Source: Astropecten irregularis
Lineage: Eukaryota; Echinodermata; Asteroidea; Paxillosida; Astropectinidae
Length of the DNA: 64,000 nt
Direction: 5' to 3'
NCBI GenBank assembly: GCA_963971285.1
Contig: OZ020250.1
Coordinates: 20,364,783-20,428,782 of the forward strand
Part shown: piece by piece, positions 1-50,357 of the stretch
Position numbering within the stretch: the first letter of the stretch is position 1
Layout of the letters: every line of letters starts with the position of its first letter
Notes under the pieces: generated by a model
Databases searched by the model: none
What the model was told of the DNA's origin: nothing
Seen by the model: only the letters and a program-made list of their open reading frames with translations
Made by a program: the position numbers and the translations under genes

Positions 1-273
1 AATTTGAACCCAATCGGACATCTGAGTCACGAGAAAATAGCGAAAACCCGACTCAATTTGATCTTATAAAACATAAATAATGGTTTTGATCTTACCCCGA
101 GATCAAACTGTTTTCGGTCTTTGTTTAACTAATTTCTGGATAAATACATCATTTCAGGCGGAAATATTTTAACAGTATGTTTCTACCAGCACCATCTTCA
201 TACCCTGTAAGTATACGTAAATCTGTGAACATTTCTGTTTTGGTCTCTTACCAAAGTGTGATACTACCTTTAA
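1..273 (-). mobile_element. M1 MITE, cut by window edge
   Basis: M1 is the ~370-bp family that fills this window: TTAA-AGGTA termini, left half with AAATGTTCACAG and GGTATGAAGATGGTG, central GATC hairpin, and a right half of type A, B or C. This copy is reversed, has a type B right half and an A-type left terminus (TTACCAAAGTGTGATACTACC). Confidence 0.85.
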
Positions 274-510
274 ATAGAATATCATTAATATAATACAATA
301 CGTCAACAGATTACTATACATCAATTATACAAACATTTCCTTTTCAAGTCTCAACAATAATTGATTTGATCGGTCCGAAGGGTTAGCCACATAGTGAACT
401 ATTTGATGCCATCTTTGGGAAAGGTTCCAGCTTATGGACATTCGAAATTATTTCATTAATCACTGTGATAGAACAGAACATTTATTGAAACAGATCATTC
501 AGACTTGTCT

Positions 511-602
511 GAAGGTCCGGTCCATATATCACCATTGCACGAAAGGTCCGGTCAATATATCACCATTGCACGAAAGGTCCGGTCAACATATCACCATTGC
601 AC
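511..602 (+). repeat. Three tandem copies of a 30-31-bp unit
   Basis: Units at 511-540, 541-571 and 572-602 read GAAGGTCCGGTCCATATATC plus ACCATTGCAC with few changes; a partial CATCACCATTGCACGATA follows. A small minisatellite. Confidence 0.85.
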
Positions 603-857
603 GATAGTGCTTTACTATCATTATGGTATGGCATCACCATTGCACGATAATGTACGTGCAATATCCCTGGGCGTGGAATCATTATTTATACAAGATGCAC
701 AACATTTATAACAAACACACGACTTTTTCTCATCAATACAATGTTTCAGATGCAAGCCTTTAATGACTTCTTGATGTCTGTTTGCCTCAAGAAGAAATAC
801 TGATTAACGCAACACAAAATGAACATCAGGGAATATAAGAATAAATCAATGACCCAC

Positions 858-939
858 CTACGCACTTGAAAATAGTTTATGGAGCGCCTAAAGGTACAAC
901 AAACGAGCAAGTCGTAAAATGTACCCAACCGTTTAAGCC
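858..939 (-). CDS. Candidate exon, gene B (9)
   Basis: Acceptor ATTGATTTCAG, donor CGTAG/GTGGGT. The frame reads LKRLGTFYDLLVCCTFRR and is part of a longer open stretch. Phase fits the exon at 2135. The chain would continue left of the window or end nearby. Confidence 0.22.
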
Positions 940-2134
940 CTGAAATCAATATCTCTTGCCCATTTCTCAAGGGTTAAGAGCAATCCTTGAGAGTTTTCCA
1001 CATAGCTACCTATCTGAGATTGAGAATACCAGTCACATTCTGGGTACCAGTTAAAAGGGTGGACCGTGGAAGGTGTTTGCTTAATATGCCTTCAATGGTA
1101 TGACGTCATAGATTTGTGGCAGATGGTATGCTGAATGACAACAAAAGACGATGACGAAAAATTGCAAAATGGGCGGAGACAGTATACATCTTGGATCATG
1201 ACAATGCATTCCTTGGTGTGAAATCTCTCCACCAATGAAATTGCAAAGTCAGGGACGTTAGGACCAATCAATGAATTGCAAAATTCACAGCTTGCATATA
1301 ACACCTAGGGACAATCATGTAACAGAAAATGTATACATTATTGACCCATCGGCATTCGACATCGATCAGAAATGACGTCATTGACACGCCTCTTTTGAAA
1401 GACTGGAGTGGGAAGCTTGAATTGGCTCGGGCAGGTGCTTACTGGCCGTTAGCCTTGGGGCACGGTGGTGGTTTCTGGCATTTTCCTGCGAGCTGAGACA
1501 GACCAGCAATGAGATGGGTTCGTGCCATAGCATTTCACGTATAATGCACCCTAAGGCTTCGAGTGGTGTATTTTCTTAACGTGTAGGAATGAAAAGACAC
1601 TATATCACTGACATAGATTGCCAATCTATCAAGTAGAAGGACGTTTTGTAGTCTCCTATACCAAACACCCGAGACAGGTATACCTAGCGAAGATTCATCA
1701 TGCAACCACCTTCATGAACCACCTAAATGAATTCCAGAAGCCAGTGTACTTTTTTTAATGGAACGTGCTTACCCACCAAATATGAAATAGATTTTAGGCA
1801 TTGAGAAATCCCACGAGAAGTTATACTGATTGTAAAAGACCAACATAGTGGACGTCACCATGGCTTCATACAGTTACAAAAGTTTTTCCTCTGGCAATTG
1901 TATCGCAGAATCTTTAAAAATAACCATTTAATTTGTCCATGTTTGTACGTGTAGGCGTTTTTTTAGCAAATGGAATAAACATAACGAAGCTTGGGGTTCT
2001 CCGAGGCTAAATATCGGACAAAACAAACCCGTAATAGCTCAAAGGAACTATAGCCATGATGAAACAGGCCCAAAGATACATCGGAATGATATAAAAACGA
2101 ATTTTTTTCTCGGTTTTTCTGTGAGTCACTTTAC
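940..2134. other. No supported feature
   Basis: Non-coding sequence with no convincing exon, RNA or repeat; would be intron if gene B is real. Confidence 0.5.
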
Positions 2135-2176
2135 CTCGGGGGATGCTGGTTAGGGTCATGGAGGCAATACTTCCAC
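2135..2176 (-). CDS. Candidate small exon, gene B (8)
   Basis: Good pyrimidine tract (CTCTCCTCTACGTTTCTAC) before TCTAAG, donor CCCGAG/GTAAAG. Reads GSIASMTLTSIPR with phase 1 in and out, compatible with both neighbours. Only 42 nt. Confidence 0.2.
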
Positions 2177-2424
2177 CTTAGAGTAGAAACGTAGAGGAGA
2201 GCAGCTAGCTCTATTTACGTTGGACTTGACCAGCTTTTATTTCCCAACCGGCACAAGTGGCTAAATCATCCGTTCGGGGTGCCACAGGGGCCACCGTGGA
2301 TAAAATGCATTGCCTCGGGTTTCTGTGCCTCGAAATTGGCGGGAAACAAATCTTCTAAAAGGTCTTTGATTTGCATTAGATTACAATAATGCAAAGCTTG
2401 TGTTATAACTTACATTCTGGTAAT

Positions 2425-2702
2425 AACCGAGGATGGGACCTTAGGGAGACTTTCCCATAGGGTCGTGCACAAACTTTACTTACCTATTTCTAAACATCCT
2501 CCAAACCAATGAACTTGAAATTGACATAATGTTCATATTGAGAGCATTCTCTGTCTTCTATTGAAATATGGAAAGAAAATATGTCTTTAAAAGGTAGCTG
2601 GTACCTTAGGGAGACATCGAAAAGTCTCCATAAGTCTTAATGTTTCCATAATGTCCAAGTTTTGATGCTAACGTGTCTCCCTAATACCCCATTTGTAATT
2701 AT
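2425..2702 (+). mobile_element. F2 repeat, copy 1
   Basis: About 278 bp from ACCGAGGATGGGACCTTAGG to CATTTGTAATTAT, with internal repeats of GTCTCC. It matches 13223-13500 almost base for base, so it is a dispersed element. No coding potential. Confidence 0.75.
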
Positions 2703-5697: not shown

Positions 5698-5951
5698 CGG
5701 CGCGTCAAGCAGAGCGGAGCAAACTGATGTTGGACCTAGAAATGATGACGTGAATGAAGTGGTGCTTCTATGAAGGGTAGTGCAGCAGCATCCCTTTACA
5801 CCGAATGTATATTACCCTATACCCTCTCTACAGTGCTTTCAAAGACCCATCGGCATTACGGTTAGTAGGACAACCCTTAATTGATGGAACTTGATCAAAC
5901 CAAATCGGTTTCTGCGTTGGAGTAAACCGATTCGCTGTTACAATGTACTTT

Positions 5952-6406
5952 TTAAGGTAAAGTACAGGATTGGTAACATACCCAAACAGAAATGTTCACA
6001 GATTTATGTATAAATTTCAGGATATGAAGATGGTGTTGGTGGTTTTATCCAAACAGAAATGTTCACAGATTTACGTATAAATTTCAGGATATGAAGATGG
6101 TGTTGATGGTTTTATCATGGTGTTGGTAGAAACATACCGTTAAAATATTTCCGCCTGAAATGGTGTATTCATCCAGAAATTAGTCAAAGAAAGGCCGAAA
6201 CAGTTTTGATCTCGGGGTAAGATCAAAACCATTCTTTATGTTTAAAAGAAAAATTGAGTCGGGTTTTCGCTATTTTCTCGTGTTTCAGATATCTGATTGA
6301 GCTCAAATTTGCACAGGTTTATTATTTTATATACCGGTACATGCTGGATCAGACAAATTGTGAGTGCTGTACTGTGACCTCTACCAATCATGGATTATAC
6401 CTTTAA
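5952..6406 (+). mobile_element. M1 MITE, type B, internal tandem duplication
   Basis: Both B termini are present (GGATTGGTAAC left, CCAATCATGGATTATACC right). About 65 bp of the left half (AAACAGAAATGTTCACAG to GATGGTGTTG) is duplicated in tandem, making it longer than its sisters. Confidence 0.85.
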
Positions 6407-8095: not shown

Positions 8096-8471
8096 TTAAA
8101 GGTAGTATCATACTTTGGTAAGAAACCAAAAGAGAAATGTTCACAGATTTACGTATAACCTACAGGGTATGCAGATGGTGGTGGTAGAAACATACCGTTA
8201 AAATCTTTCCGCCTGAAGACAGTGAAGTGGTGTATTTATCCAGAAATTAGTAAAACAACGACCGAAAATCTTTTTGATCTTTTAAAAGATCAAAAATAAA
8301 AGACAAAAGACTTAGGAAATATCTGTGGCTGTTTTCCACTGTTTTCTCAAAAAGTGGGCACCGTTATGGGACTGAAATTTTCACAGATGACTGTTACTGT
8401 ATCTTCCTTGATATTTTTGCCCACGAATCTGTATTTCTTTGATAAAAACCAAAGTATGATACTACCATTAA
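8096..8471 (+). mobile_element. M1 MITE, type A
   Basis: Left GGTAGTATCATACTTTGGTA, right CCAAAGTATGATACTACC; central hairpin TTGATCTTTTAAAAGATCAA. Right half contains the type A run AAAAAGTGGGCACCG. Confidence 0.87.
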
Positions 8472-8724
8472 TGTAATGAAAACCAAGTCATAGGCCCCTA
8501 TCTAATCTTCTCATCAATGTTAGTATAATGTGATTCAAGTGTAGCACTGTCAGGACGGTACATTTTCACTTAGTCTGTATAATTATTCATTCATGAATGA
8601 ATTGAGATGTATCGCACTCAGCAATCGGGCAATAACAACTCCATTAATGTGCACAATTGGCAGTGGTTTGGGGGTATTTTGTAGAGGGGGATGTTGTGGT
8701 ATTCTACACTTTATTTCTGATAAT

Positions 8725-9080
8725 TTGAGCTCAGTCGAACCTCTGAGTCTCGAAAAAATAGCGAAAACTCGACTAAATTCTTTTTATAAAACATACAGAA
8801 AGATTTTTGTTTATCTTGCCGAGATAAAAAATGTTTTTGGTATTTGGTTTTACTCTTTCTGAATAAATACAGCATTTCAAGCGGAAAAACGATATGATTC
8901 TACCAGCACCATCTTCATACCTAGTCTGAGTATCACCCGTTCTACTCCGTGCCACACTTTACGTACGCTATTTTCTCGTGACTCAGTTGTCCGATTGAGC
9001 TCAAATTTTCACAGGTTCATTATTTCATGTACATGTTGGATCAGACAAAGTGTGATCCTGGTGCTGTTTTCCACCTTTAA
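8725..9080. mobile_element. Two M1 fragments (type B right halves) head to head
   Basis: 8725-8922 is a reversed fragment ending in TACCAGCACCATCTTCATACC. 8966-9080 is a forward right-half fragment starting CGCTATTTTCTCGTGACTC. They are separated by about 43 bp of unrelated sequence. Confidence 0.7.
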
Positions 9081-9982: not shown

Positions 9983-10442
9983 TTAAAGGTACAGTACAGT
10001 GCCCGATTTCACGAAACTTTACGCAGTTGCGTAAGTCCACTTACGCCATGAAATTTGTGGCGTAAGTGGACTTACGCAACTGCGTAAAGTTTCGTGAAAT
10101 CGACTGCAGGATTGGTAACAAACAAACAAAAACAGAAATGTTCACAAGTATAACTTTCAGGGTATGAAGAGCGGTGCAGGTAGAATCATACCGTTAAAAT
10201 GTTTACGCCTCAAATGGTGTATTTATCCAGAAATTTTGGAAAACAAAGACCGAAAACAGTTTTGATCTCGGGGTAATATCAAAACCATTCTTTATGTTGT
10301 TTTCGATATTTTCTCGGGAGTGATTCAGATGTCCGATTGATCTCGAAATAATTTTCACAGGCTTATTATTTCATGAACATGATGGATCAGGCAAAGTGTG
10401 AGTGCTGTTCTGTGACCTTTACCAATCATGTATTACATTTAA
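9983..10442 (+). mobile_element. M1 MITE, type B, with nested foldback insertion
   Basis: Left terminus TTAAAGGTACAGTACA is interrupted at about 10000 and resumes GGATTGGTAAC at about 10109. The right end is CCAATCATGTATTACATTTAA. The insert is described separately. Confidence 0.85.
10000..10106. mobile_element. Nested foldback element with perfect 44-bp arms
   Basis: Arms 10005-10048 and 10058-10101 are exact reverse complements around a 9-nt loop. The tips (GATTTCACGAAAC) resemble the F8 termini. The host M1 sequence duplicated at the ends is at most CAG. Confidence 0.85.
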
Positions 10443-13569: not shown

Positions 13570-13782
13570 AAAGCTTTGCATGGTGGAAGTACTCAATGTA
13601 AGGTCTGCGGTAGCACCACGTACAAGAATCTCTAAGTGTGCAGTTCTCCCTCCTGACGACGAACAGAGCACGCTGTTTGAAACGTCGAGTGTTAAACCAC
13701 AGGTTCTTCTCAGAACCACATAATCATAGAAGAGATTCTTGAACATGGGTGCTACCACAAACCTTACCTTATGATACATCCC
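13570..13782. mobile_element. F4 palindromic MITE, copy 1 (decayed)
   Basis: Shares TTAAAGCT.TGCATGGTGGA, the core GAACAGAGCACGCTGTTTGA and TTCTTCTCAGAACCACA with 38457-38695; one arm is eroded. Confidence 0.65.
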
Positions 13783-13790
13783 CTCATAAT

Positions 13791-15732: not shown

Positions 15733-16111
15733 TTAAAGGTATATAGTGTCATGGTTTGGTAAAGTTGACAGAACAGCTGCGGTCTGTTCATAATTTGATT
15801 TGTCATGAAATAAAAACAAACCTGTGCAATTGTCAGTTCAATTGATCGTTGGAAACAGTTGAAAACAGCGAAAACCATTGCAATTGTTACGCGAAATTGT
15901 GAGGTAATTATAATTGTGAGGTTTTCATCTCGGATATCAAAACCATTTTCGCTCTTTTTACTCCGTTCTGGATAAATACAGCGTTTCGGGCAGAACAATG
16001 TTAATGGTATGTTTGTACCAGGTATATCTTTATACCATGTAAGTTAAAGGTAAATATGTGAACATTTCTGTATTAGTTTCCTACCAAAGTATGATAATAG
16101 TATACCTTTAG
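15733..16111 (-). mobile_element. M1 MITE, type C right half
   Basis: Reversed. It starts with the C-type half (GACAGAACAGCTGCGGTC, TTTGTCATGAAATAAAAAC) and ends with an A-type left terminus (CTACCAAAGTATGATAATAG). Confidence 0.83.
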
Positions 16112-17477: not shown

Positions 17478-17840
17478 TTAAAGGTATAATACATGATTGG
17501 TAAAGGTCACAGAACAGCACTCAAATTGTCCCTGATCCAGCATGTACATAAAATAATAAACCTGTGAAAATTTGAGCTCAATTGGACATCTGAGTCAAGA
17601 GAAAATAGCGAAAACGCGACTCAATTTTTCATATACAGCATAAAGAATGGTTTTGATCTTATCCCGAGATCAAAACTGTTTGCGGTCTTTGTTTTACTAA
17701 TTTCTAAATAAATACATCATTTCAGGCAGAATAATTTAACGGTATGTTTCTACCAGCACCATCTTCATACCCTGAAATGTATACGTAAATCTGTGGACAT
17801 TTCTGTTTGGGTATGTTACCAATCCTGTACTGTACCTTAA
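17478..17840 (-). mobile_element. M1 MITE, type B
   Basis: Reversed; starts TTAAAGGTATAATACATGAT, ends CCAATCCTGTACTGTACCTTAA. TTAA at both ends. Confidence 0.86.
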
Positions 17841-18496
17841 ATTGGTGGAGACCTTATCAAAAAGTTATTTACGGCAAACAAAATTTGCGTTCATTCACGA
17901 TTATCTGTCTCGACCCACGCAGGCGTGACAGAAGACATCACATGTCATGTTGATCGCAGGGGATGGATTTTGCCTTAAGCCATACCGACCAAAAAAAAAG
18001 AAGAAGAACCACAGTGTTATCACATCTTGTTGGTAAAAAAGGCACAAGCACACTACAACTCCCCAAGGATGTACAGAAATAAGCTTCAGTAATATCTCCA
18101 TCACCTTTTATCCAATTGCCACTAGCATTTCCTATTATACAGGTCTACAGGTCGAAGTGATTTTCATTTGCTGACGGAGCTAGCACTTTTAATCAATAGT
18201 CATATGCCTATCTGTTGGAGGAATGTGACACCCCGGACAGTTTGATAGAAGGGAGATGGGTGGGGGAGGAGGAGGGGGTCAAGGGGTTGGTATAAGCAAT
18301 TGGACGGCCGTAAAGTGTAGGAAATGTCAGGGTGTCAGCACAGCGTGTCTCGGTGAAATTTTGCAAAGTGCATACCAAGAGGGTTGTCCCACAGCGCATA
18401 ATTATATGCTTTTAAGTCCTTATAGGAAAAACAAATCTTTACAGAATATGTGATGGACCTTTTTGCGTGATTATTGAGCCAATGGCTTACGATGTC

Positions 18497-18861
18497 TTAA
18501 AGGTAGTATCATATTTTGGTAGCATATCAAAACAGAAATCTTCACAGATTTACCTATAACTTTGGTATAAAGATGGTGATGGTAGAAACATAACGTTAAA
18601 ATCATTCTGCCTGAAATGCTGTATGTATCCAGAAAAGAGTAAAACCAATTTGACCAAAAACAATTTTGATCTCAGGGAGATCATTTTCCCCTGTGCACAG
18701 ATTTAAAAACACTGTGAGTGTTTTAAATGTTTGTGTCCAAAAAGTGGGCACCGATGGGACTGGAAATGTCACAGATGACTGTTACTGTATATCTTTCTTG
18801 GTATTTGTGCCCAAAAATCTGCATTTGTTTGACAAAAACCAAAGTATGATGTTACCTTTAA
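18497..18861 (+). mobile_element. M1 MITE, type A
   Basis: TTAAAGGTAGTATCATATTT at left, CCAAAGTATGATGTTACC at right. Confidence 0.86.
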
Positions 18862-22011: not shown

Positions 22012-22355
22012 TTACAGGTAGTATCATAGTATAGCATGGTAGCACACCAAAACAGAAATCTTCACAGATTTACCTATAACTTTAATACAGGGTATGAAGA
22101 TGGTGATGGTAGAAACATAGCGTTCACATCTTTCTGCCTGAAATACTGTTATCCAGAAATGAGTAAAACAAAAGACTGAAAACAGTTTTGATCTCCGAGA
22201 TCAAAACCTCACAATTACAATTATCTTACAATTTCGCCTAACATTAATTCAATGTTTTTTCGCTGTTTTCTACTGTTTCCAATAATCAATTGAGCTGAAC
22301 ATTTCTCGGGTGTGTTTTTATTCCATGACAAATCAAATTATGATACTACCTTTAA
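22012..22355 (+). mobile_element. M1 MITE, A left / C right
   Basis: Left GGTAGTATCATAG; right half is type C (TTCCATGACAAATCAAATTA then TGATACTACC). The left end has TTACAGG instead of TTAAAGG. Confidence 0.82.
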
Positions 22356-23812
22356 CTTGATTTATCGGTAAAATTGTCCAGGTTTTGATTTCTATAATTT
22401 TCAATGTTTCAATAATTCCAATGTTGTTGTTCATCATTATAATCGATTTCGAAGGGACTTATGCTATCACGTGACACTATATAGGCCCCCTACCTGCACG
22501 TAAATCGTGATTGGCATTACTGCAAATTCGCTGTCTGAGTGACATTCCCATTAAAGTACATTTTCATGTCATTTCGGGCAAGCTATGCAATACATCTCTG
22601 AAGATATGTTTCGGTATGCTACCAAAGTATGTTAAACTAAGGGCACATTCGGTGGCTATTGTCAGGGACCAATCAGCGTCCAGGATAGGAATCAACTCGA
22701 AGACTACTAACCAATGAAAACACATATTAAATACCTTTCAAACTATACGATTGGTTCATTCCAAGTCACATTAAAGATGAGCTTACTTCCGCTGATAATT
22801 AATAAGTATTTGTAATTGAGCCCGTGGGCACTCCGCGGTGTGACTGATAATTTGATTTAAAAGAAAGTTCGATAATTTCATTATGTGAAAGTAAGGCAAT
22901 TGACAATAATCTGATTAATTTTTTTTTTTTTTTTCACCCGAGTATATAGGATATCCTAACTTCAACAAATTTCATTCAATTTGAGTTCCTTCTGTATTTT
23001 TTGTTTGTTGTTTTCCTAACCTGCAGCAAAACAAGTAACCTGGACGGAAATCAGCGCGACCTGGCGATTCTCCGTGTGTCTTAACCTAATTAAGATCTTA
23101 ATTATTAACCTTAGATGTACAGATGCGGGTGTTACGTATCGAACGGCTCCCTAAGCCAACCAAACAATTAGGTTAATACTGATCCCATGGAAGTGGGACG
23201 TCAAACTCCTCGGCCAACCATCTTTCCTCAATCTTGTCAAAGGCCGAGCTTATTCATTGAATCTTTTTCCAGAAAAACAAACTCCTTATTGATACTTGGG
23301 CCCTTTTCCTTTTCATGAGTTCCCACGTGCGTTACACAATTACAAGACGCACGTGTACAAATAGCACGTAACTTGGGTGCAACAACAACAAAATGTGGAA
23401 AACTGCGCTCCGGATGTAACGAGGTTCCGGTTACAACGACAAAATTGTGAAAGTCCCTCGTAATAACGGGAGTCAACTGAATACACTAAGACACGTTGCT
23501 ACAACCACGTCTTGTGTTTAACGACAACAGAATAGCGAGATTGGTAAAAAACAAACGAGCATTTTATCAGATGTAACATCTGCCGTTAGATGTCTTTGAG
23601 ATTGGGAATATTACGTAGGCCTAAGAGTGATCACTGAATCTATCTCTTTTACAGTAAATTCCCCCAAAGCAGGCGTATATCGTCATAAGTCTTTAATCAT
23701 ATCTATATATAACGACACATTATAAAACACAGCCTACTGCTGCTATCTCAAATCTAGTATTTACTTTGATAAAAAAAAAGAAGAGAAAATCAGTATTTCA
23801 ATTTTTTCATAT
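22356..23812. other. No supported feature
   Basis: Has a T-run (22919-22934) and AT-rich sequence only. Confidence 0.45.
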
Positions 23813-24199
23813 TTAAGGTACTATCATACTTTGGTAGAGGTGACAGAACAGCTGCGGTCTGTTCATAATTTGATTTGTCATGGAATAAAAACAAACAAAC
23901 CTGTGAAATGTTCAGCTCAATATTGATCATTGGAAAAAGTAGACAACAGCGAAAATCAATTACATTCATGTTACGCGAAATTGTAAGCTATAAGGGATTG
24001 TAAGTGTTACGTTTTGATCTCGCAGATCAAAACTGTTTTCGGTCTTTTGTTTTACTCATTTCTGGATAAAAACAGTATTTCAGGCGGAAAAATTGTAACG
24101 GTATGTTTCTACCATCACCATCTTCATACCCTGTATGTTATACGTACATCTGTGAACATTTCTGTTTTGGTTTCCTACCAAAGGAAGATAGTACCTTAA
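23813..24199 (-). mobile_element. M1 MITE, C right / A left
   Basis: Reversed; starts TTAAGGTACTATCATACTTT with the C body (GACAGAACAGCTGCGGTC), ends CTACCAAAGGAAGATAGTACC. Lies 200 bp from the gene B candidate signal-peptide exon, in its first intron. Confidence 0.85.
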
Positions 24200-24402
24200 A
24201 ATGTAATCGAAACAAAGGAGACGTTAGATATATCGGTTAGCTATGCCTACATGTAACAATATGACTTCTGCAATTTAAACAAGATTACAATCGCACAAAC
24301 TCTTACACGTTTTCGACATTTTTGTGAAGATAAAACAAATCTGAAAAAAGTTGGTATAACAAAGATCGATACTCTTTAACAAAATGAGGAATATGTACTT
24401 AC

Positions 24403-26917: not shown

Positions 26918-27265
26918 CTATGCGAGGTGTGAAAACAGACAGCTGAATGCAATGAATATATTTGTGTAGGCCTATATGCAGTTTTAATTACTTGGATTTT
27001 CTGGCGTCGCAGAAAAAAACAGGAAGCCAGTCTTGAAACAAAATACATGTCTCTGTGTCGTGCTTCACGACGACGGTCAGAGCTAACGACTCGAAACATC
27101 GAGACTAGTATGTTAAACTAGCAATCAAAGTAGTGGTTGAAAGAAATGGTTCATTGATAAAATGGCTCAAGGATTGTGTATATTTCATTAGCAGAAGAAG
27201 CTTTAGGTAGTAGGATCTGTTGGTACAAGTATAATTTACTATTAGGGACACACCACCAACATAGG

Positions 27266-27358
27266 GCTGGATTGCTCAGTTGGTAAGAGCGCCGGTACAG
27301 TGTTCCGGAGGTCGCTGGATCGAATCCCGCTCCAGTCAATTGTTCTTTGTTCACTTTT
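27266..27358 (+). mobile_element. Short tRNA-like repeat, copy 1
   Basis: GGCTGGATTGCTCAGTTGGT AAGAGCGCC, then GGATCGAATCCCGC and a tail CTTTGTTCACTTTTCAATGA. Acceptor, D and T arms fold, but the anticodon loop lacks U33, so it is not a working tRNA. Confidence 0.65.
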
Positions 27359-27497
27359 CAATGACTTGAAATTAAACCAGCCAGTTTCCCTTGTGGTTAT
27401 TGGATGACTTGAGCATTTTGTATATATGAGATAACCAGATCTGCACTGTATAATTATGCAGCAGTGTGTGCGTGAAAAAAATATATCTTCGACTTAC

Positions 27498-29775: not shown

Positions 29776-30133
29776 TTAAAGGTACAATACATGATTGGTA
29801 AAGGTCACAAACAGCACTCACACTATATCTGATCTATGAAATGATAAATCTGTGAAAATTTGAGCTCAATCGGACATCTGAGTCACGAGAAAATAGCGAA
29901 AAACCGACTCAATATTTCTTGTAAAACATAAAGAATGGTTTTGATCTTACCCCGCGATCAAAACTGTTTTCGGTCTTTGTTTGACTAATTTCGTGAAAAA
30001 TACACAATTTCAGACGGACATATTTTAATGGTATGTTTCTACAAGCACTATCTTCATATCCTGAAAGTTATACGTAAATCTGTGAACATTTCTGTTATGG
30101 GTATGTTATACCAATCCTGCACTGTACCTTTAA
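29776..30133 (-). mobile_element. M1 MITE, type B
   Basis: Reversed; TTAAAGGTACAATACATGAT to CCAATCCTGCACTGTACC, then TTTAA. Confidence 0.87.
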
Positions 30134-30446: not shown

Positions 30447-30807
30447 TTAAAGGTATACTTCCATACTTTGGAAGTATACCAAACAGAAATGTTCAAAGAT
30501 TTACCTATAACTTACAGGGTTGAAGATGGTGATGGTAGAACATACCGTTAAAATGTTTCTGCCCGAAATGCTTTATTTATCCAGAAAAGTACAACCAATG
30601 ACCAAAAACGTTTTGATCTCTGGGTGAGATCAAAACACCTGTGAATAGATTTGAAAATACCGTGAGCGTTTTTCACTGATTTCTCAAAAAGTGGGAACTG
30701 TGTGGGACTGAACATTTCACAGATGACTGATACTGTATCTTCCTTAATATTTGTACCAATGAATTTGTATTTCTTTGACGAAAACCAAAGTATGACGTTA
30801 CCTTTAA
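30447..30807 (+). mobile_element. M1 MITE, type A
   Basis: The left end has an extra local inverted repeat (GGTATACTTCCATACTTTGG then AAGTATACC). Right end CCAAAGTATGACGTTACC. Confidence 0.85.
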
Positions 30808-31297: not shown

Positions 31298-31670
31298 TTA
31301 AAGGTAGTGTCATACTTTGGTAAGAAACCAAAGCAGAAATCTTCACAGATTTACCTATAAATTACAGGGTATGAAGATGGTGGTGGTAGAAACATACCGT
31401 TAAAATGTTTCCGTCTGAAATGGTGTATCTATCCAGAAATTAGTAAAATAACGACCGAAAATCTGTTTGATCTTTTAAAAGAACGAAAAATAAAAAAGAG
31501 AAGACTTCAGAAATACTATGGCCGTTTTTCACTGTTTTCTCAAAAAGTGGGCAGCGTATGGGACTGGGAATTTCACAGATGACTGTTACTGTATCTTTGT
31601 TGATATTTTTGCCCATGAATCTGAATTTCTTTGACAAACACCAAACCAAAGTATAAAAAATAACCTTCAA
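31298..31670 (+). mobile_element. M1 MITE, type A, decayed right tip
   Basis: Left TTAAAGGTAGTGTCATACTT; right ends CCAAAGTATAAAAAATAACC, so the last bases are degraded. Confidence 0.84.
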
Positions 31671-33308: not shown

Positions 33309-34558
33309 AGCGAGGTTTATATTCTGCACAAGAAATATTGCTGAATGATTCAGCGAAGGTACATGCTAGGCTTGGTCTAAATACTATAGACTTATTTATT
33401 GCTCAAAGGTGCCATCACTTGACCAAAAATGGGTCAACAAGTATCTTGTGTGTAAGCTCTACTCCCCAAATTGTACCTCCTTATTAATAACCTCTAAATA
33501 CAGTACTATGCATTGTTTACCCCTATATCCAACCTGCTGTATGCATTACTACATGCCTCAAGCGAAAGATTTTCCTAGAAGTATTTGCAGAGGAACATAA
33601 TAAAAGACACTGGCATCAGATTGCATCTCAGAGATACATGAGCAACAAAATCACCCACAGCGGAGGAAAGAACATCCCAGAAGATGCGAGAAGCCGCGTG
33701 TGATGTGCTACAATATAAAAAGGTCACCTGAGAATAGCACGCTAGGCCCAGAGACCAAACCATTAACAGAAGTAACTCATATATACGGACTCTATACCAT
33801 TTCACTAACTCAGTATAAGGCGGTCTGGAGGCGTTTTGCAAGGATGAGTCGATAAAACGCGTTTATGTTACCTTCGATACTACTATCTATTCATCATCGG
33901 CTTCATAATTCAGAGCAAAATTGATGCCAGAACATAAGAAGGGGCTTCTTCTGTTACTCGATAGCAGGAAATTCGTCATGACAAGAAATACCTCTGTCAA
34001 ATTAAGCTGAGGTGATATCAAGCAATTTGGTTAATTATGGTATATGGACAGCGATGGAATGGAAAGGTAACTCCGATAGTACGTACGTGTGGCATGCACG
34101 AGGGGTATTAAAGGAACAAGCTTACGGGGCATCGAGGGGTTGGTTGATGGGAGTCTGTGACTGACGGAGCAAATCAGACATGTTATGACAATTTACCTGC
34201 CGGACATGGGTTTACTGTTTCACGGGAAAAGAGAGACGAACTCTTGACATAATTTTGTGTAATATTTCGTCGCTTGGAGGTCTGGTGGAATTATATCTAA
34301 ATCAATTTACGGGGTGAACGGGAGGGTCTCGATATATAAATGACTCCATTTATGTTGTTATATTGAAATTGATTATAATCAGGGATGGCTCTACCATAGG
34401 TTTTACCTTAAAGGCCAATTGCATTATTGCAAGTAGACCGGTCGATGTACACGTGTATAGGCAATATGCAGTGTACCAATGTGCATTATACGTGTCTGGA
34501 ATAATGCACATTTTAATTGCGACTAATTTAAGCATTGTGAAACTGTTCTATACTGTTT
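33309..34558. other. No supported gene
   Basis: A minus-strand frame at 33600-33740 follows an acceptor-like CTATTCTCAG but has no good donor. Confidence 0.4.
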
Positions 34559-34884
34559 TTAAAGGTACAGTACATGATTGGTATTACATACCCGAAGAGA
34601 AATGTTCACAGATTTAAGTATAACTTTCAGGGTATGAAGATGGTGCTGGTAGAAACATACCGTTGAGATATTTCCGCCTGAAATTATGTATTTATCCAGA
34701 AATAGTAAAACAAAACACCAAAATCATTTTTGATCTTGGCAAAATCAAAAATCCTTCTTTCGCCATTTTCTCGGGACTCACAATGTCCGATTGAGCTCAA
34801 CTTTTCACATAATTTTACATACTGGATTACACAAAGTATGGGTGCCGTTCTCATACAATTACCAATCATGTAGTATACCTTTAA
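34559..34884 (+). mobile_element. M1 MITE, type B
   Basis: TTAAAGGTACAGTACATGAT to CCAATCATGTAGTATACC and TTTAA. Shorter by small internal deletions. Confidence 0.86.
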
Positions 34885-35301
34885 GTATAATTATTGAAAA
34901 TGCTCAAATTAAATGTTTTTTAATCTGATTCCTTCCGATTGTGAGCAGTTCTGGTTAAATAGTAATTGCCCAAAATATCCTGCTTTTCCGAGAAGTTTTG
35001 TTTCTTTGTTCCGGATTGCGAATGTGTGCCGTTTTCTAATCACCGTTTGACGTCATAATGCGCATGTCCAAATGGCCAAACTAGCAATTTCATAAGTCAT
35101 GTGTGCGCATGCGTCAATACTCGCACTAAATACAAAACAAATCATACGCATCACAGTATAAAGGCCTGAAAGGTACAATTGGTAAAAACAAGAACGTAAT
35201 CCTGACGTCACAGAGAGCAAAAAAAGGCCCACGGTGGCTTAGCACTAGTACAAAGTAAACAAATATCTCACAAGTGACGTCAGTCGCTTTCGATTGAGTT
35301 A

Positions 35302-35923
35302 TTAAAGGTAACTTCATACTTTGGTATTTGCCAAAGAAATGCAGATTCATGAGCAAAAATATTAAGAAAGATACAGTAACACTCACTAACAGTCATCTGT
35401 GAAATTTCCGGTCAAATACAATGCCCAATTTTTGAGAAAACACTGAAAACGGACCCGATATTATTATACTGAACTATTTTTTGGTCTTAAGTTTTACTCT
35501 TTTCTTGATAAATACAGCATTTCAGGCAGAATAATTTCAACGGTATGTTTCTACCATCACCATCTTTATACCCAGTAAGTTATAGGTTAACATTATTATT
35601 CTTATTTTTTATTTCTGTTAATGACACAAAGGATTCCTCAAAAGCGCCCTAGGCACTGTAGCTCGAAATCCTGCTGAAACCTTTTATGGAAAGATGATGA
35701 GAAGAAGATACAGTTTTAGAGGTGGGAGGAAAATCCAAGAGTAAAATTCTGGGTAAAACCCACAGAATCAGGTAGAGACTGAAAACCCAATCCACTTGTG
35801 GACCGAGCCAGACTTGAACCCGGTCCGCAGAGGTGAAAGGCGAGGAAAGAACCGCTACGCCAACCTGACTCACCAATAATGTGAAGATTTTGGTATGCTA
35901 CCAAAGTATGATACTACCTTTAA
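35302..35923 (-). mobile_element. M1 MITE, type A, split by a SINE
   Basis: Reversed; starts TTAAAGGTAACTTCATACTT, ends CTACCAAAGTATGATACTACC. The left half is interrupted at about 35590 by a full SINE in minus orientation, so the SINE is younger than this copy. Confidence 0.86.
35591..35872 (-). mobile_element. tRNA-derived SINE, copy 2, inside an M1 element
   Basis: Same element reversed: head GTCAGGTTGGCGTAGCGGTT at 35872, body AGGTGGGAGGAAAA, tail with ATTATTATTCTT at 35591. Confidence 0.85.
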
Positions 35924-36297: not shown

Positions 36298-36713
36298 CTA
36301 GGATTTGACGGCCCAGGACCTTAAATGTCATCAGGTATCCAAAAAGGTTACGCTGAGCACTTGGCATTTCCACCACAGGAGACCACAAATTATTATGAAA
36401 TCTATAAAAGGGGGAAGAGTCCACCTTTGTAAAAAGACAGTGCACCGAAACAAGGCATTGGGTTTAGCCATTTTTGAATTATGTCAAGAAAATCAGTTTC
36501 AATCATACGTCTTTGAATTGAGCGTACAACTCATGTTACATCTATCTACTTATAACATTTCATACAATTTTCTTCCTTGTCATGATCAATATTTAGCAGG
36601 TGAATGCTGCCAATAAGAATTAAGGGAAAAACAAATTGTATTGTTCTGACATCAAAATTATTATAAATGATAGATTCTACGTCTACATAATAGTCATACA
36701 ATAGTCGTTCAGT

Positions 36714-37019
36714 TTTTGCTAAAGAAATTCAGATTCATAGGCAAAACTATCAAGAAAGATACAGTAACAGTCATCAGTGAAAATTTCTGTCGCATACGGT
36801 GCCCACTTTTTTGAGAAAGCAGTGAAAAATGGCCTCAGTATTTCTTAAGTGTTTTCTCTTTTATTTTTGATCTTATCACTGGTTTTACTCTTTTCTGGAT
36901 AAATACAAGCAGAAACATGTTAACGGTATGTTTCTACCATCGCCATCTTTATACACTGTAAGTTATAGGTAAGTCTGTGACCTGTTTTGGTATGCTACCA
37001 AAGTATGATACTACATTAA
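36714..37019 (-). mobile_element. M1 MITE, type A, truncated
   Basis: The outer tip of the right half is missing (starts TGCTAAAGAAATTCAGATTC); the left end CTACCAAAGTATGATACTAC is intact. Confidence 0.8.
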
Positions 37020-38420: not shown

Positions 38421-38456
38421 ATATGATTTGAATTATTATATTACTAAGTAAGACTT

Positions 38457-38695
38457 AAAGCTATGCATGGTGGATGTACTAAAATGAAGGTAAGTTTGCG
38501 GTGACACCATGTAATCTCTTCTGCGAGAGTGTGTGGTTCTGAGAAGAACCGTAGGTATTAACTCGACGTTCCGAACAGTGTGCTCTGTTCGTCCTCAGGA
38601 GAATGACTGATGACTAATACCTACGGTTCTTCTCAGAACCACACACTCTAACAGAAGAGATTACATGGTGTCACCGCAAACTTACCTTCATTTTA
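38457..38695. mobile_element. F4 palindromic MITE, copy 2, near-perfect arms
   Basis: Arms 38481-38560 and 38615-38695 are about 80 bp and nearly exact reverse complements (e.g. TTCTGAGAAGAACCGTAGG and CCTACGGTTCTTCTCAGAA). The 54-bp centre holds GTGCTCTGTTCGTCCTC. Confidence 0.85.
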
Positions 38696-40328: not shown

Positions 40329-40690
40329 TTAAAGGTATATACAATTGGTAACATACCCAAACAGAAATGTTCACAGATTTACGTATAACTTTCAGGGTAT
40401 GAAGATGGTGCTGGTAGATACATACTGTTAAAATAATTCCACCTGAAATGGTGTATTTATCCAGAAATAAGTCAAACAAAGACCGAAAACAGTTTTGATT
40501 TCAGGGTAAGATCAAAACCATTCTTGTTGTTTGATAAGAAAAATTGAGTCTGTTTCTCGCTATTTTCTCGTGACTCAGATGTCCGATTGAGCTCAAATGT
40601 TCACAGGTGTGTTGTTTTATGTACTTGTTGGATTAGACAAAGTGTGAGTGCTGTTCTGTGACCTTTACCAATCATGTATTATACCATTAA
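40329..40690 (+). mobile_element. M1 MITE, type B
   Basis: TTAAAGGTATATACAATTGG to CCAATCATGTATTATACC, then ATTAA. A 153-codon antisense frame over this copy is chance openness. Confidence 0.86.
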
Positions 40691-40770
40691 TTGTGACTAA
40701 CTGAAGCGATCTGAAACTGTTCTATACTGTTTTAAGCATTATTGAAAGTGCTCAAATTCAATTGTCAAAT

Positions 40771-40954
40771 GAGATCAAAACCATTATTCATCTTTTATAA
40801 GAAAAATTGAGTCGAGTTTTCGCTATTTTCTCGTGACTCAGATTGAGCTCACATTTTCACAGTTGTATCACTTCGTGTACATATTGTTGGATCAGACAAA
40901 GTGTGTGTGCTGTTCTGTGACATTTACCAATCATGTATTAGACATGTACCTTTA
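40771..40954 (+). mobile_element. M1 fragment, type B right half
   Basis: Begins at the central GAGATCAAAACC and ends CCAATCATGTATTAGACATG. Only 80 bp after the previous copy; the left half is absent. Confidence 0.78.
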
Positions 40955-42132: not shown

Positions 42133-42537
42133 TTAAAGGTATAATACAGGATTGGTAACATACAGTATGTTAGGCCTACATTTCTGTTTGGGAATGTTGC
42201 ATACCCAAACAGAAATGTTCACAGATATAACTTTCAGGTTATGAAGATGGTGCTGGTAGAAACACACCGTTAACATATTTCCGTCTGAAATGGTGTATTT
42301 ATCCAAAAATTAGTAAGAACTCAGACCGAAAACAGTTTTGATTTCGGGGTGAGATCAAAACCATTCTTCACGTTTTATAAGAAAGATTGATTTAGGTTTT
42401 TGCTAATTTCTCGTGACTCAGATGTCCGATTGAGCTCAAATTTTCACAGAGTATTTTTTATGTACAATTTGTGTACATGCTGGATTAGACAAAAGTGTGA
42501 GTCTGTGACCTTTACCAATCATGTATTATACCTTTAA
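42133..42537 (+). mobile_element. M1 MITE, type B, with short inverted insertion
   Basis: After GGATTGGTAACATAC there is about 45 bp containing an inverted copy of the adjacent segment (ACATTTCTGTTTGGGAATGT), then the normal order resumes. Right end ATGTATTATACCTTTAA. Confidence 0.84.
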
Positions 42538-42880: not shown

Positions 42881-43250
42881 TTACAGATAGTATCATACTT
42901 TGGTAAGAAACCAAAACAGAAATGTTCACAGATTTACGTATAACTTACAGGGTATGAAGATGGTGGTGGTAGAAACATCATACCGTTAAAATATTTCCGC
43001 CTGAAATGGTGTATTTATCCAGAAATTAGTAAAATAATAAAAATCTTTTTTTGATCTTTTAAAAGATCAACAATAACAGAAAAAAGACTTAAGAAATATA
43101 CTGTGGCCCTTTTCACTATTTTCTCAAAAAGTGGGCACTTTATATGGGACTGAAATTGTCACAGATGACTGTAATTGTATCTTCCTTGATATTTTTGCCC
43201 CATGAATCTGTATTTCTTTGACAAAAACAAAAGTATGATATTACCTTTAA
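42881..43250 (+). mobile_element. M1 MITE, type A
   Basis: Left tip altered (TTACAGATAGTATCATACTT); right AAAGTATGATATTACC then TTTAA. Confidence 0.85.
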
Positions 43251-44360: not shown

Positions 44361-44731
44361 TTAAAGGTACAGTATACAGGATTGGTAACATACACAAACA
44401 GAAATGTTCACAGATTTACGTATAACTTTCAGCCGGATATGAAGATAGTGCTGGTAGAAACATACGGTTAAAATGTTTCCCCCTGAAACGGTGTACTTAT
44501 CTCGAAATTAGTCAAACAAAGACCGAATACAGTTTTGATCTCGGGGTAAGATCAATAACCATTCTTATGTTTTATAAGAACAATTTAGTCGGGGTTTTCG
44601 CTGTTTTCTCGGGACTCAGATGTCCGATTGAGCTCAAAGTTTCACAGGTGTGTTATTTTATGTACATGTTGGATCAGACAAAGTGTGAGTTCTGTTCTGT
44701 CACCTTTACCAACGTTGTACACGCCATTTAA
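44361..44731 (+). mobile_element. M1 MITE, type B
   Basis: TTAAAGGTACAGTATACAGG at left; the right tip is diverged (CCAACGTTGTACACGCC). Confidence 0.84.
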
Positions 44732-45350: not shown

Positions 45351-45368
45351 ATCACTTGCACATGCTCA

Positions 45369-45588
45369 GGGGCCAATTTCATAAAACTGTTAAGCACAAA
45401 AATTTGCTAAGCATGACATTTCTGTCTTAATAAAAACAGGGTTAACAACCAAATTTCCACGTGTTGTGTATCACTTATTATTGGTCTTTGGATGTTGTTC
45501 GCTGACCACGAATGGAATTTTCAGTGGTGGTTTGTTTTATTGTGCTCAGCAAATTTTTGTGCTGAACAGTTTTATGAAATTGGCCCCT
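45369..45588 (+). mobile_element. F5 MITE, copy 4
   Basis: Starts GGGGCCAATTTCATAAAACT, ends TTATGAAATTGGCCCCTGA; inner TTAATAAAAACAGGGTTAAC matches the copy at 45155 in reverse. Confidence 0.85.
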
Positions 45589-45692
45589 GATGTCCATGTG
45601 CAGCCACATGAAGGGTGTAAAAGTCTCAAATTGTTGATACTCTGTCATTAGATTTTTGAACAATTTGTACAAATCGGTATCAAATAAAGATT

Positions 45693-45891
45693 TTTTCACA
45701 CGGAGCTATAAAAATCGCAAGGCTTGGGAGTTTTTCTCATGCTTGAGAAATTTCTCAAGGATTCACTGGGGACGTCGGTCACTCTCAATCATTGGTGTTC
45801 TTTCACACGATGACACTTTTGTAAGATTTTTCAAGCATGAGAAAAACTCGCAAGCATTGCGAGGTTTTTTTTTTCATCGTGTGAAAAGGCC
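45693..45891 (+). mobile_element. F3 MITE, copy 2
   Basis: Ends TTTTCACACGGAG and ATCGTGTGAAAAGG are inverted; inner arms (CTCATGCTTGAGAAA, TTTCAAGCATGAGAA) are also inverted. Confidence 0.7.
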
Positions 45892-47834
45892 TTTTACTTA
45901 GCAAATTCGCTACATTCGCTTTTTACTTCCAGTATGGTCTTCTGTAACACGTTTTGCATGCTGAACAATGTTTTGAAAAAGAAACCAAAATAATGTGACC
46001 CAATGCAGCATAATGAGGAATGTTCCCCAGGTTTGAATTTTTGAGATATGTGCAGTATTAGAAGGAGCAATCCATGGGCTTTCCAATGATACCAAAATTA
46101 TTTTCATATCTTATTCCATTCCAAAATTATGACACGATAAAGAGAACTGCTTACATTATTTTATTATTGCTTTTCAATAACTTGTTATTTAGGATTGAGA
46201 CATTATACATTAGTTCCTTGTATTACCGCAGCCTGCATGCGACACGTCTGTTTTAATATGGTGTAGTCTGTGAGAAATGTACAGTGCATTGTCCGGGCAA
46301 CTTCTACCACATTAGCACAGACAAGAAGATATAAAGAGGGCTTCTTGATCTTCACTATAGCAGAGAAGCATAGCAGATGTCAAAGACCTGAGCAGTAGGT
46401 TAATTAACCATTAGTCTTTACTGTCCAATCCGTTCAGTGTACTTCTCAACATGATGTCAAAACTAGTACAGACTTGTATTTCTGAGCACCGAGCACTTCC
46501 CTTAAGAATGAAATGCGTGTACATCCAATGAAAGAGCCATTATGATTTATCAATGTCAAAAATGTTATACATTTTCGATATTTTTTTTTGCAATGGTATG
46601 TATAGGATGAACACAATCTTAAGAAATATTGTTGCTCCACGTACAGAACTAAATTGATTGAGTATAATATAAAAGATGCAATCTTTGATATAAGTATAGC
46701 TTTGGTCGCGTGTTATAGAAGTGAGGAATACAATTTTGGGACGCAAGAAAACTTGAGGCATTCAACTTAGTGGAGAGATGAATTGGAAGTCATTGTCACG
46801 TACACGTGGCAATTGCACTGCCACTGCATGCACACGGCATACATCATAATACCAATACAAGTAATAAACTGCTGCATGCAAACTGCTCATCACTTGCATG
46901 TTCTTGTCCTCTTGTCATTTAGCCTATAAGATCCTGCTAGGATCGAAACGCGTCGGGCCCCCCTAACTCCAAGCAGATACCGATATATGCTTAAGCACGA
47001 TAGCCTGCTTAGCACAATTGCTTACGACTGTTTCTCATCTGGTGTCATTTTGCTAAGAATAACGATTTTGCATGGGGTTGTTTTTTGGGCAAGTTTACTG
47101 ATGTGTGAAACTGGAGCCAAGGTATACAAGGGGTTAGTAGCATCATTTTGCAAGAAATCCTCTCACAAGTAGGTCATCCCAAGCAGTATACAGTATACTG
47201 CAGGAATCACGGTGCATACAGTATCAGACATATTACTGCGTCTGAGTGATGGAATAAATCTAGCTGGCATAAGGGGATGGATGATATGCTCCTGTAGTAC
47301 AAATATCAGATAGCCATCACTATAGTTGGGCGCACAGGTATTCGTTACTAAAGATAGTTTCCCATAATGTCAAAGAATAATACACTAAAATGAAGCCACA
47401 TAAATGCCAGATCCTGCGAGGCCTCAATTTTCTTCTATCTGTTCCCAAACCAACATCATCTTTTTTTTTCCAACGAACTCTCACTTTTATATACATCCTC
47501 AAACGGTATCCCAACTGGGATTTTTACCAGCACCGCGTTCTGACCGACTTGTCCGGGGTTAACCTAATATCACGGCCCTGCTGGCATCTTCATATACCGA
47601 GGAAACTGAACAGGCTACGGTACTAGGTAAAGGGTCTATCCCCTAAACGATTACGGTATATCGATTCCTTCTTTACACTCTCGTGTCGGCACTGCGCGCA
47701 CTTCAAGTCTTCCTTTTTGTGAAACAACGAGGTGGAAAGACCCTTCGGTGGAAAATTCAGTCAATTATTTTGCTATCACATTTTAAAAGGGTCGGATGTT
47801 AATAGGGCCTATGTTGTATAAGTGGCGACCCCGA
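45892..47834. other. No gene; one F6 copy
   Basis: Apart from F6 at 46856 nothing assignable; open frames here are short and AT-rich. Confidence 0.45.
46856..46975 (+). mobile_element. F6 MITE, copy 4
   Basis: ACAAGTAATAAACTGCTGCA start, AGATCCTGCTAGGATCGAAA and ACGCGTCGGGC near the end, then ACTCCAAGCAG. First arm lost. Confidence 0.72.
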
Positions 47835-48197
47835 TTTCGGTACTATCATACTTTGGTAGGAAACCAAAACAGAAATCTTCATAGATTTACCTATAACATA
47901 CAGGGTACACAGATGGTGATGGTAGAAACATACAGTTAAAATGTTTCTGCCTTAAATGCTGTATTTATCCAGAAAAGAGTAACACCAATGGCCAAAAATA
48001 ATTTTGATCTTTTAAAGATCGGAAAAAAAAAGTGGAAAAGATTTTTAAAAGACTGTGGGAGTTTTTCTCTGTTTTCTCAAAAAGTGGGCACCGTATGGGA
48101 CTAAATTTTTAACAGATGACTGTTACTTTATCCTCCTTGAAATGTTTGCCCTTAAATCAGCATTTCTTTGACAAAAACCAAAGTATATTACCTTTAA
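47835..48197 (+). mobile_element. M1 MITE, type A
   Basis: Left tip TTTCGGTACTATCATACTTT, right CCAAAGTATATTACC then TTTAA. Confidence 0.84.
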
Positions 48198-49018
48198 AAA
48201 CCACAGGGTCTATATGAGTTGTACACAGACTCACCCGCTGACGTATATACATGTACTGGGTAATATAGTTAAAATTAGCGGTTGGAACGTACTTTGAGTA
48301 GCTAGCCTACCTTTAGCTTTCGGGGTGAAAAAAGGAAGAAATTACAAGTAAATAGATCGATGATGAATGGCACTCGCATTGACAATTAAATAAACCTCCA
48401 TTAATATTACATTTCTCCTCCGGCTATAGGGCAAGGATATACAGGGGGAAATTGGCTGTACGTATTATAGGCCCTATACTATCCGGGACTTCAGAACCAA
48501 TACAATTCGTGTGATGAGGCGTCCACAGCAATACATACACCGATATTCGATCACGGTGAGTTAATGAGCGTGCCGACACGATGACCGTGAGCGGTAAAAA
48601 AAAAAATACACCGGCCTCGGCGCTCGTCTTCAAAGAACGCCTGCTAAACTCAAGTTTCATACACCACCGTTATCGGAGGATATTTTATTCCTTTATATCT
48701 CTTCATATATAATTCGGATATCGTATGTCTGAAAGGTTGATGTACTCAACAAAACCCACGTAGATAGTTGAGATGAGTTTCGCCAAAAGGCTAGCTCTGA
48801 CAATATAATATTTGATCTTGCCAAATAGCTTCATTACATCAATGAAAACAATTTATTAAAGTGTGTAATCGAGAAGCTTGACGAAGAGTTCCTTAGGTGT
48901 AGGAGTAAAAAGGCCAAAAATTGGAAAGCAGAGTTTTCATCATTATACTCTCCATCACGGTGAACTCAGGCCGAAAATGATAAATTAATTAGCTAACTGG
49001 CTTACTGGGATGTGATTT
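48198..49018. other. No supported feature
   Basis: A 78-codon minus frame at 48424-48660 has no supporting signals. Confidence 0.4.
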
Positions 49019-49202
49019 ATTGATTCAGTTTAATTGTCTCAATTCCATGACTAATGATAATTAGTTGAGTGATCTCAGTGTTATTAGTAGCTAAATGACT
49101 CAATAAATTTAAATTTAATTTATTTATTGAGCCATTTAGCTAATAAATAACACAATTGATTGATATATCACTCAATTAATAAACTGAATTATAATTGAAT
49201 CA
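49019..49202. repeat. AT-rich long imperfect palindrome
   Basis: TGATTCAGTTTAATTGTCTC is mirrored by the TAAACTGAATTATAATTGAA end; the centre has TGACTCAATAAATTTAAA and TTTATTTATTGAGCCA. Likely a foldback element; no second copy seen. Confidence 0.55.
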
Positions 49203-49338
49203 AGTTCCTACAATAATGAATATAGTTACTTCATGTCCAGTTTGAACAAACTCTTCATTAGTATCAACTTCCTATTTCCTCTTTACAAAATAGCCTAATT
49301 ATTTCAAACAAAAGGGGAAATAAAAGAAAAGAAAACTG

Positions 49339-49688
49339 TTAAAGGTAGTATCATACTTTGGTAAGAAACCAAAACAGAAATGTTCACGTATAACTTACAG
49401 GGTATGAAGATGGTGGTGGTAGAAACAAACCGTTAACAGATTTTCGCCTGAAATGGTGTAGGCCTATTTATCCGGCAATTAGTAAAACAACGACCGGAAA
49501 TCTTTTTGATGTTTTAAAAGATGAAAAATTAAAGAAAAAAGACTTGAGAAATACTGTGGCTGTTTTTCACTGTTTTCACTGTATGGGAGTGGAAATTTCA
49601 CAGATGACTGTTACTGTATCTGTCTTGATATTTTTGCCCATGAATCTGTATTTCTTTGATAAAAACCAAAGTATGATATTACCTTTAA
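49339..49688 (+). mobile_element. M1 MITE, type A
   Basis: TTAAAGGTAGTATCATACTT to CCAAAGTATGATATTACC, TTTAA. Lacks the AAAAAGTGGGCACC block of the type A right half. Confidence 0.85.
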
Positions 49689-50034
49689 AACAAAAACATC
49701 AATCAACCAATGCATGAATCTAATACCAATTATAACTTTAATTTCAACACTTATTGTAAAAATGCAAACAGCATAATTCAACAGAGTTATATCGATAAAA
49801 TGGAATTACTGGTAATAACATTATTTTTCCAAATAGATTGTCACTGTAATCAAAAGTCCAAATGAACAACCTCAATTATTAACTTTTGCTAATCAAACGC
49901 TTTTACCCAAAAAAGCAACAATGTCTAACTTTAATTTAAATGTTCAAAGACTGAAGACCTAGTAGTATGGGTCAAAAACTCATGAGTTGCATTATAAGTC
50001 CATTATTTTGTAAGATTTCATCAAACTAATGAAA

Positions 50035-50357
50035 TTAAAGGCACAATACAGGATTGGTAAAGGTGACAAAATATGATAATTTGATTTGTCATGGAATAAA
50101 AACACGTCACCATCGGAAAATGTAGAAAACAGTGAAAAATGCTCACAGTATTTTCAAATCTATTCACAGGAGTTTTATCTTACCCCGAGATCAAAACTGT
50201 TTTTGGTCGTTGTTTTACTGATTTCTGGACAAATTACAGCATTTCATCCGGAAATATTTTAACGATATGCTTCTACCAGCACCATCATCATATCCTGAAA
50301 GCTATAGGTAAATCTGTGAACATTTATATTTCTGTTTTGGTATGCTACCAATCCTGT
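50035..50357 (-). mobile_element. M1 MITE, mosaic (B terminus on C body)
   Basis: Reversed; TTAAAGGCACAATACAGGAT is a B-type tip, but the adjoining body (TTTGATTTGTCATGGAATAA) is type C. Left end CTACCAATCCTGTGG. The rightmost M1 copy in the window. Confidence 0.8.

Follow-up and report, generated by a model that had tools for sequence, protein, structure and literature searches.

A stretch of 64,000 nucleotides from Astropecten irregularis (assembly GCA_963971285.1, contig OZ020250.1, positions 20,364,783 to 20,428,782, forward strand), referred to here as the window, carries many copies of a short repeat, named M1, and raises the question of what kind of element M1 is, where it inserts and which transposase has moved it. 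We conclude with reasonable confidence that M1 is a high-copy, non-coding family of miniature inverted-repeat transposable elements (MITEs), transposed by a cut-and-paste mechanism into TTAA targets, amplified in several old waves and most likely mobilised by the Kolobok superfamily.

The M1 family and its TTAA target

The set of M1 loci, built by self-BLAST and end mapping, comprises 24 loci and one 45-bp fragment (22591-22635), all within positions 1-50375. M1-homologous DNA amounts to 8287 bp, that is, 12.95% of the window and 16.5% of positions 1-50375, with none after 50375, and a shuffled-query control returned 0 matches in 20; the hand-drawn outer limits of the 24 loci span 8852 bp (13.8% of the window). 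These values confirm a preliminary description of this DNA, which had announced one MITE family at about 24 loci covering about 13% of the window. Word searches gave a similar picture, with 27 matches to AAATGTTCACAG at up to one mismatch (chance mean 0.76), 21 to GGTATGAAGATGGTG at up to two mismatches (chance 0.11), and 29 exact matches to the end word TTAAAGGTA (chance 0.86). Motif matches do not, however, equate with loci, since alignment showed that the elements carry the first motif twice, the additional copy, AAATTTTCACAG, lying in their right half. The final 13.6 kb of the window is free of M1; were the 24 loci scattered uniformly, this would have a probability of about 0.003, the boundary having itself been read off the data. 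A minus-strand open reading frame (ORF) with a Polycystin-domain match lies in this part, at 52630-53802.

M1 is about 365 bp long, with inverted ends of about 20 bp. The 15 complete copies of the window align and group into three types, a (n=6), b (n=6) and c (n=3). The inverted ends are AGGTARTATCATACTTTGGT in type b and AGGTAYARTACAKGATTGGTAA in type a; the consensuses of all three subfamilies have AG..CT termini, and the ends read AGGTA. All three also harbour a central palindrome, with a stem of 10 bp (a), 11 bp (b) or 10 bp (c), which, when folded as DNA, outperforms almost every one of 200 shuffles (z of -5.4, -3.3 and -5.3, respectively); in type b, many of the copies listed show it as a self-match of 26 bp. 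In a Pfam scan limited to ORFs above 150 amino acids (aa), the only window ORF of that size overlapping an M1 copy had no match. M1 is thus a MITE: it is short, bounded by terminal inverted repeats, devoid of recognised coding sequence and present in many interspersed copies. The preliminary description is right on the short inverted ends, the GATC hairpin in the middle of the element and the abundance of copies, as well as on the repeat family itself, but not on its uniformity, for M1 divides into three or more subfamilies that differ from one another in their ends and right halves.

With regard to the insertion site, two ends are recognisable in 16 of the 24 loci; an exact TTAA is found at 25 of these 32 ends, and at both ends in 10 of the 16 loci. 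When the window is taken together with loci that were not chosen by a TTAA-containing pattern, TTAA stands outside 82 of 102 type-b ends and 13 of 20 type-a ends, with a mild remaining bias, as 30 of the loci counted were chosen by similarity to a consensus including TTAA. The preliminary description had proposed TTAA-targeting transposition, with TTAA as part of the inverted repeat as its alternative, and had pointed to empty sites as the means of telling them apart. We compared the joined flanks of 23 of the 24 loci with the window, a test that is weak for loci with lost or inexact tips, and obtained one spanning match, between the joined flanks of 34559-34884 and positions 40687-40762 (80 columns, 83.75% identity). 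The filled site reads ..CTGTTT-TTAA-[AGGTA..TACCT]-TTAA-GTATAATTATTG and its empty counterpart ..CTGTT-TTAA-GCATTATTG; small indels occur next to the insertion point. Both belong to a repeat of about 75 bp (40687-40764 and 34513-34914), which holds the empty and the filled M1 sites and in which homology begins exactly at TTAA; no further copy of this repeat was found in the window and the loci searched.

Junctions between abutting M1 copies bear on the same point. A motif scan of 69 sources yielded five junctions with one common TTAA, four of them from loci picked by a pattern starting with TTAA, and, in these same sources, none with the doubled form TTAATTAA, which next to an M1 end reads TACCTTTAATTAAAGGTA. 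In two sampled loci (L019 and L053), abutting pairs have an imperfect TTAA common to both copies. Genome-wide, the shared-junction pattern TACCTTTAAAGGTAGTATCATACTTTGG has 399 exact strand matches compared with 0 for the reversed control; this figure exceeds the number of distinct junctions, as palindromic ones are counted twice, one array contributes 7 and only five neighbouring bases are fixed. This array, at G000:C8:26109505-26110220, shows seven shared-TTAA M1 junctions at spacings of 87, 248, 96, 83, 87 and 87 bp and looks like a tandem array made of M1 ends, recalling the tandem repeats of the Xenopus MITE Xmix described in the part of PMC6004289 cited here. At L060:1038-1329, left-end and right-end M1 fragments alternate, one junction having a common TTAA.

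Because the empty site keeps a single TTAA and abutting copies use one TTAA, TTAA is the target and not, in full, a part of the M1 inverted repeat. Several observations weigh on the other side: 7 of the 32 tabulated ends are not TTAA (TTTA, TTAC or CTAA), and the copy at 23812-24200 shows TTTA..TAAA, which is inverted rather than duplicated, as the end of a repeat would be. Besides, a duplication of 2 or 3 bp within a strict TTAA target would look identical to a 4-bp TTAA duplication, since TTAA is palindromic and the element starts with A and ends with T. That TTAA belongs to the inverted repeat, the real duplication being something else, would also agree with TTAA at both tips in 10 of the 16 two-ended loci, but it is contradicted by the single TTAA of the empty site and by the shared junctions (five against none in the 69 sources, and 399 genome-wide), and we regard it as barely credible. 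TTAA as the target of M1, by contrast, draws support from both lines.

The transposase behind M1

As described in the cited passages of PMC9587614, Kolobok elements generate TTAA duplications and, unlike piggyBac, have 5'-RR..YY-3' ends. The T2 MITEs of Xenopus, presumed to be driven by Kolobok, combine TTAA with AGGRR (Hikosaka and Konishi 2018, PMC6004289), and the Xenopus Kolobok ends in the table rows shown there begin with AG. The AG..CT ends of M1, together with its TTAA, conform to the Kolobok end rule, and since RR..YY ends coincide with a TTAA target, Kolobok is the most likely mobiliser; judged from these ends, M1 probably belongs with it.

The preliminary description had called the transposition piggyBac-like, and such transposases are at hand: the piggyBac domain PF13843 has 90 matches in the genome, some with open frames above 600 aa. 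We resolved piggyBac ends in 4 of 10 loci examined, representing three families (TTAA-flanked inverted ends, at most 2 of 14 mismatches, M1 ends excluded), and they start with CCCTT or CTCTT; the six other loci gave no resolved ends, and the score of the L065 ends was reached by 1 of 20 shuffles. M1 lacks these termini, TTAA being the trait in common. Both end types stand side by side in locus L069, where an M1 copy is interrupted, at a TTAA, by a piggyBac copy. This locus had been considered as a piggyBac gene enclosed by M1 ends in an element of 4 kb, a candidate rejected as the piggyBac copy has its own CTCTTCCGC ends. The TTAA target and the abundance of piggyBac domains would suit mobilisation of M1 by a piggyBac transposase; set against the AG start of M1, the CCCTT or CTCTT of the resolved ends and the RR..YY ends that set Kolobok apart (PMC9587614, cited passages), this origin is very unlikely, and a piggyBac label for M1 is not supported.

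Two points weigh against Kolobok. First, AGGTA departs from the AGGRR motif of T2 MITEs. Second, no autonomous partner, for which the preliminary description had suggested searching, turned up when a C or G was required after the type-b end (278 matches genome-wide): in each of the 30 loci taken, from one contig, M1 sequence adjoins that end. A Kolobok partner would be expected to encode a DDE transposase with a C/DxxH motif and, often, a THAP domain. Some of the copies in these loci are rearranged or truncated, and two loci (L039 and L040) overlap. Likewise, no transposase was recognised by Pfam in 9 hand-chosen ORFs out of 45 of at least 140 aa in the sampled loci, piggyBac frames excluded.

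We also considered PF20700 ('Mutator'), which we took, as a guess, for a possible Kolobok relative. It has 23 matches in the genome, and M1 ends are absent from the eight PF20700 loci inspected (about 4.1 kb each; the second of two families seen may extend beyond). One of these families has 24-bp inverted repeats (CTATTTAGTGTGG..). A repeated PF20700 element occurs in L075-L078 and L081, with 99.0-99.6% identity to L075 for L076, L077 and L081 and 90-96% for L078, and open frames of about 700 aa in some copies; it looks like a DNA transposon that moved recently and lacks M1 ends.

The missing autonomous partner and the AGGTA ends would equally fit membership of M1 in another TTAA-targeting superfamily, described or not. 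Sola3, for example, prefers TTAA. The combination of RR..YY ends and TTAA is nonetheless the Kolobok signature in the cited passages of PMC9587614 and calls for no other group, and we hold such membership to be unlikely. Within the Kolobok-type model that we infer for the excision of M1, the identity of its transposase and the cutting pattern, a transposase encoded elsewhere would bind the inverted ends of about 20 bp of either type, excise M1 and insert it at TTAA, which would then stand on both sides.

Abundance, age and the central hairpin

In the 475.7-Mb assembly (168 contigs), the core 15-mer GGTATGAAGATGGTG has 15,860 exact matches, compared with 2 for a reversed control word. The window contains 10, where 2.13 are expected (4.7-fold excess, Poisson 8e-5, a value that is descriptive only, the window having been flagged for its M1 content), so that its high M1 density is local, at about 4.7 times the genome mean. 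Extrapolation from the ratio in this one window (24 loci per 10 exact 15-mers) leads to about 38,000 M1 copies, which, at 345 bp per copy, would make up about 2.8% of the genome.

A search with the type-b consensus, in which 40 of 2974 first-look candidates were scored and 30 loci taken, provided 28 complete copies. These best-match copies are 94.8-97.5% identical to their own consensus (2.5-5.2% diverged), and the closest pair reaches 96.2%. Near-full neighbours encountered incidentally have median identities to the window consensuses of 88.9% (18 type-b copies) and 86.4% (5 type-a copies). Judging from these divergences, the amplification of M1 is old and not a recent burst; the family was probably amplified in several waves, corresponding to types a, b and c, whose copies later decayed. 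Type b is the type searched genome-wide, and a younger subfamily far from its consensus could escape. The large burst suggested by the preliminary description thus stands solely as an old event, to judge from the best 28 type-b copies.

The subfamilies differ in a peculiar manner. Between consensuses, identity is 89-92% in the left core and 49-58% in the right block; the boundary is the central hairpin, and the left half that the subfamilies have in common measures about 140 bp. Sliding identity, gaps included, drops at the hairpin, from a level near 0.9 to one of 0.35-0.47, before partially recovering rightward, most for a versus c (up to 0.74). Within types, identity to the consensus is about equal in the core (91-93%) and the right block (87-93%), as expected under neutral decay after insertion.

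We can propose, tentatively and as a somewhat doubtful idea, that the GATC palindrome acted as a recombination hinge at which the right side was repeatedly replaced and the ends retuned while the left module, about 140 bp long, persisted, the family evolving by module exchange and not by point divergence. Such replacement would explain why the subfamilies have the left half in common but differ in the right. Consistent with such exchange, 22 of 100 near-full copies have a right half clearly assigned to b but a core that resembles another type more closely (c in 13 copies, a in 9); the discordance reaches at least 10 bits in only 9 of them, and older b lineages with ancestral core states would explain part of it. 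Besides, right-half-only segments break at consensus positions 157-195 in 7 of 14 cases, compared with 12.6% expected (p 0.0008), and at 162-194 in 6 of 14 (p 0.002), but this is a hint only, as the intervals were set after viewing the data and many loci were picked by type-b ends. The 14 segments are 17 right-end-only segments minus three (L069, interrupted by piggyBac; L056, adjacent to masked bases; and one of two alike L060 fragments); 21 left-end-only segments were excluded because a right half from a subfamily without a model would be mistaken there for a break.

It is also possible, though uncertain, that the left half was kept by selection in mobile copies, for example for transposase binding, and not by swapping of right halves. 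The GGTATG and CATACC motifs present in the core could bind a transposase, and most discordant cores have small score margins. Selection accounts less readily for an identity drop located at the hairpin and followed by partial recovery, or for the 22 copies with a mixed constitution, 9 of them by at least 10 bits.

Features of the window and comparison with known systems

The M1 loci are collected in the table below. Two other repeats attracted non-coding RNA matches. An Rfam Histone3 stem-loop match (38620-38664) falls inside one arm of an inverted repeat at 38480-38695 (arms of about 80 bp, by eye), which has a relative at 13650-13770; it is probably a MITE arm mimicking a histone stem-loop and not a histone gene. 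An Rfam transfer RNA (tRNA) match (27265-27338) lies in a repeat at 27257-27364, where ARAGORN found no tRNA gene; with relatives at 63661-63762, 60082-60154 and 50867-50929, this repeat looks like a tRNA-derived family of short interspersed nuclear elements.

Table. M1 loci and related features of the window, in window coordinates.
Feature	Position	Strand	Remarks
M1 copy	1..273	-	cut by window edge
M1 type a	5951..6406	+	67-bp internal tandem duplication (5982-6116)
M1 type b	8096..8471	+	both ends TTAA
M1 copy, rearranged	8718..9080	.	partly inverted: left part on -, right part on +
M1 type a	9983..10442	+	foreign insert after left end (M1 homology 10107-10442); both ends TTAA
M1 type c	15733..16111	-	
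M1 type a	17478..17841	-	
M1 type b	18497..18861	+	both ends TTAA
M1 type c	22012..22355	+	
Short M1-like fragment	22591..22635	.	outside the 24 loci
M1 type c	23812..24200	-	both ends TTTA (read inward)
M1 type a	29776..30133	-	both ends TTAA
M1 type b	30447..30807	+	both ends TTAA
M1 type b	31298..31645	+	without right tip
M1 type a	34559..34884	+	both ends TTAA; empty site at 40687-40762
M1 type b	35302..35923	-	split by foreign insert (~35591-35887); both ends TTAA
M1 type b	36712..37017	-	decayed tips
M1 type a	40329..40690	+	both ends TTAA
Empty-site homologue of 34559-34884 flanks	40687..40762	+	single TTAA; 80 aligned columns, 83.75% identity
M1 type a, right half only	40772..40943	+	begins in hairpin; right tip to ~40955
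M1 type a	42133..42537	+	both ends TTAA
M1 type b	42881..43250	+	
M1 type a	44361..44712	+	without right tip
M1 type b	47839..48197	+	
M1 type b	49339..49688	+	both ends TTAA
M1 copy	50035..50357	-	decayed or mixed

Taken as a whole, M1 is an ordinary MITE family, large and old, whose TTAA target is well supported and whose mobiliser is probably of Kolobok type. The TTAA target is settled from the sequence itself, and a piggyBac label gives way to a better-supported Kolobok-type one. Its size, about 38,000 copies and about 2.8% of the genome if the window ratio holds, matters for the annotation of the A. irregularis genome, and modularity centred on the hairpin offers a testable idea on the origin of MITE subfamilies.

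Literature searches, by text and not by sequence, found no publication on the M1 family among the papers listed; M1 can be set beside three known systems. With the piggyBac superfamily and its MITEs, M1 shares the TTAA target, but it has AGGTA where the piggyBac ends of this genome, as resolved in 4 of 10 loci, have CCCTT or CTCTT. With the Kolobok superfamily, as portrayed in the cited passages of PMC9587614, it shares the TTAA target and 5'-RR..YY-3' ends, from which its membership is deduced, and differs in having no recognised coding sequence. The T2 family of Xenopus, compared by description and not by sequence from the cited parts of PMC6004289, resembles M1 most broadly as an old MITE family with a TTAA target, an AGG start and many subfamilies; its ends are AGGRR instead of AGGTA, and it includes young members, whereas young type-b copies of M1 were not found among the 28 examined. 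Compared with T2, the subfamilies of M1 are set apart by a common left core combined with differing ends and right halves.

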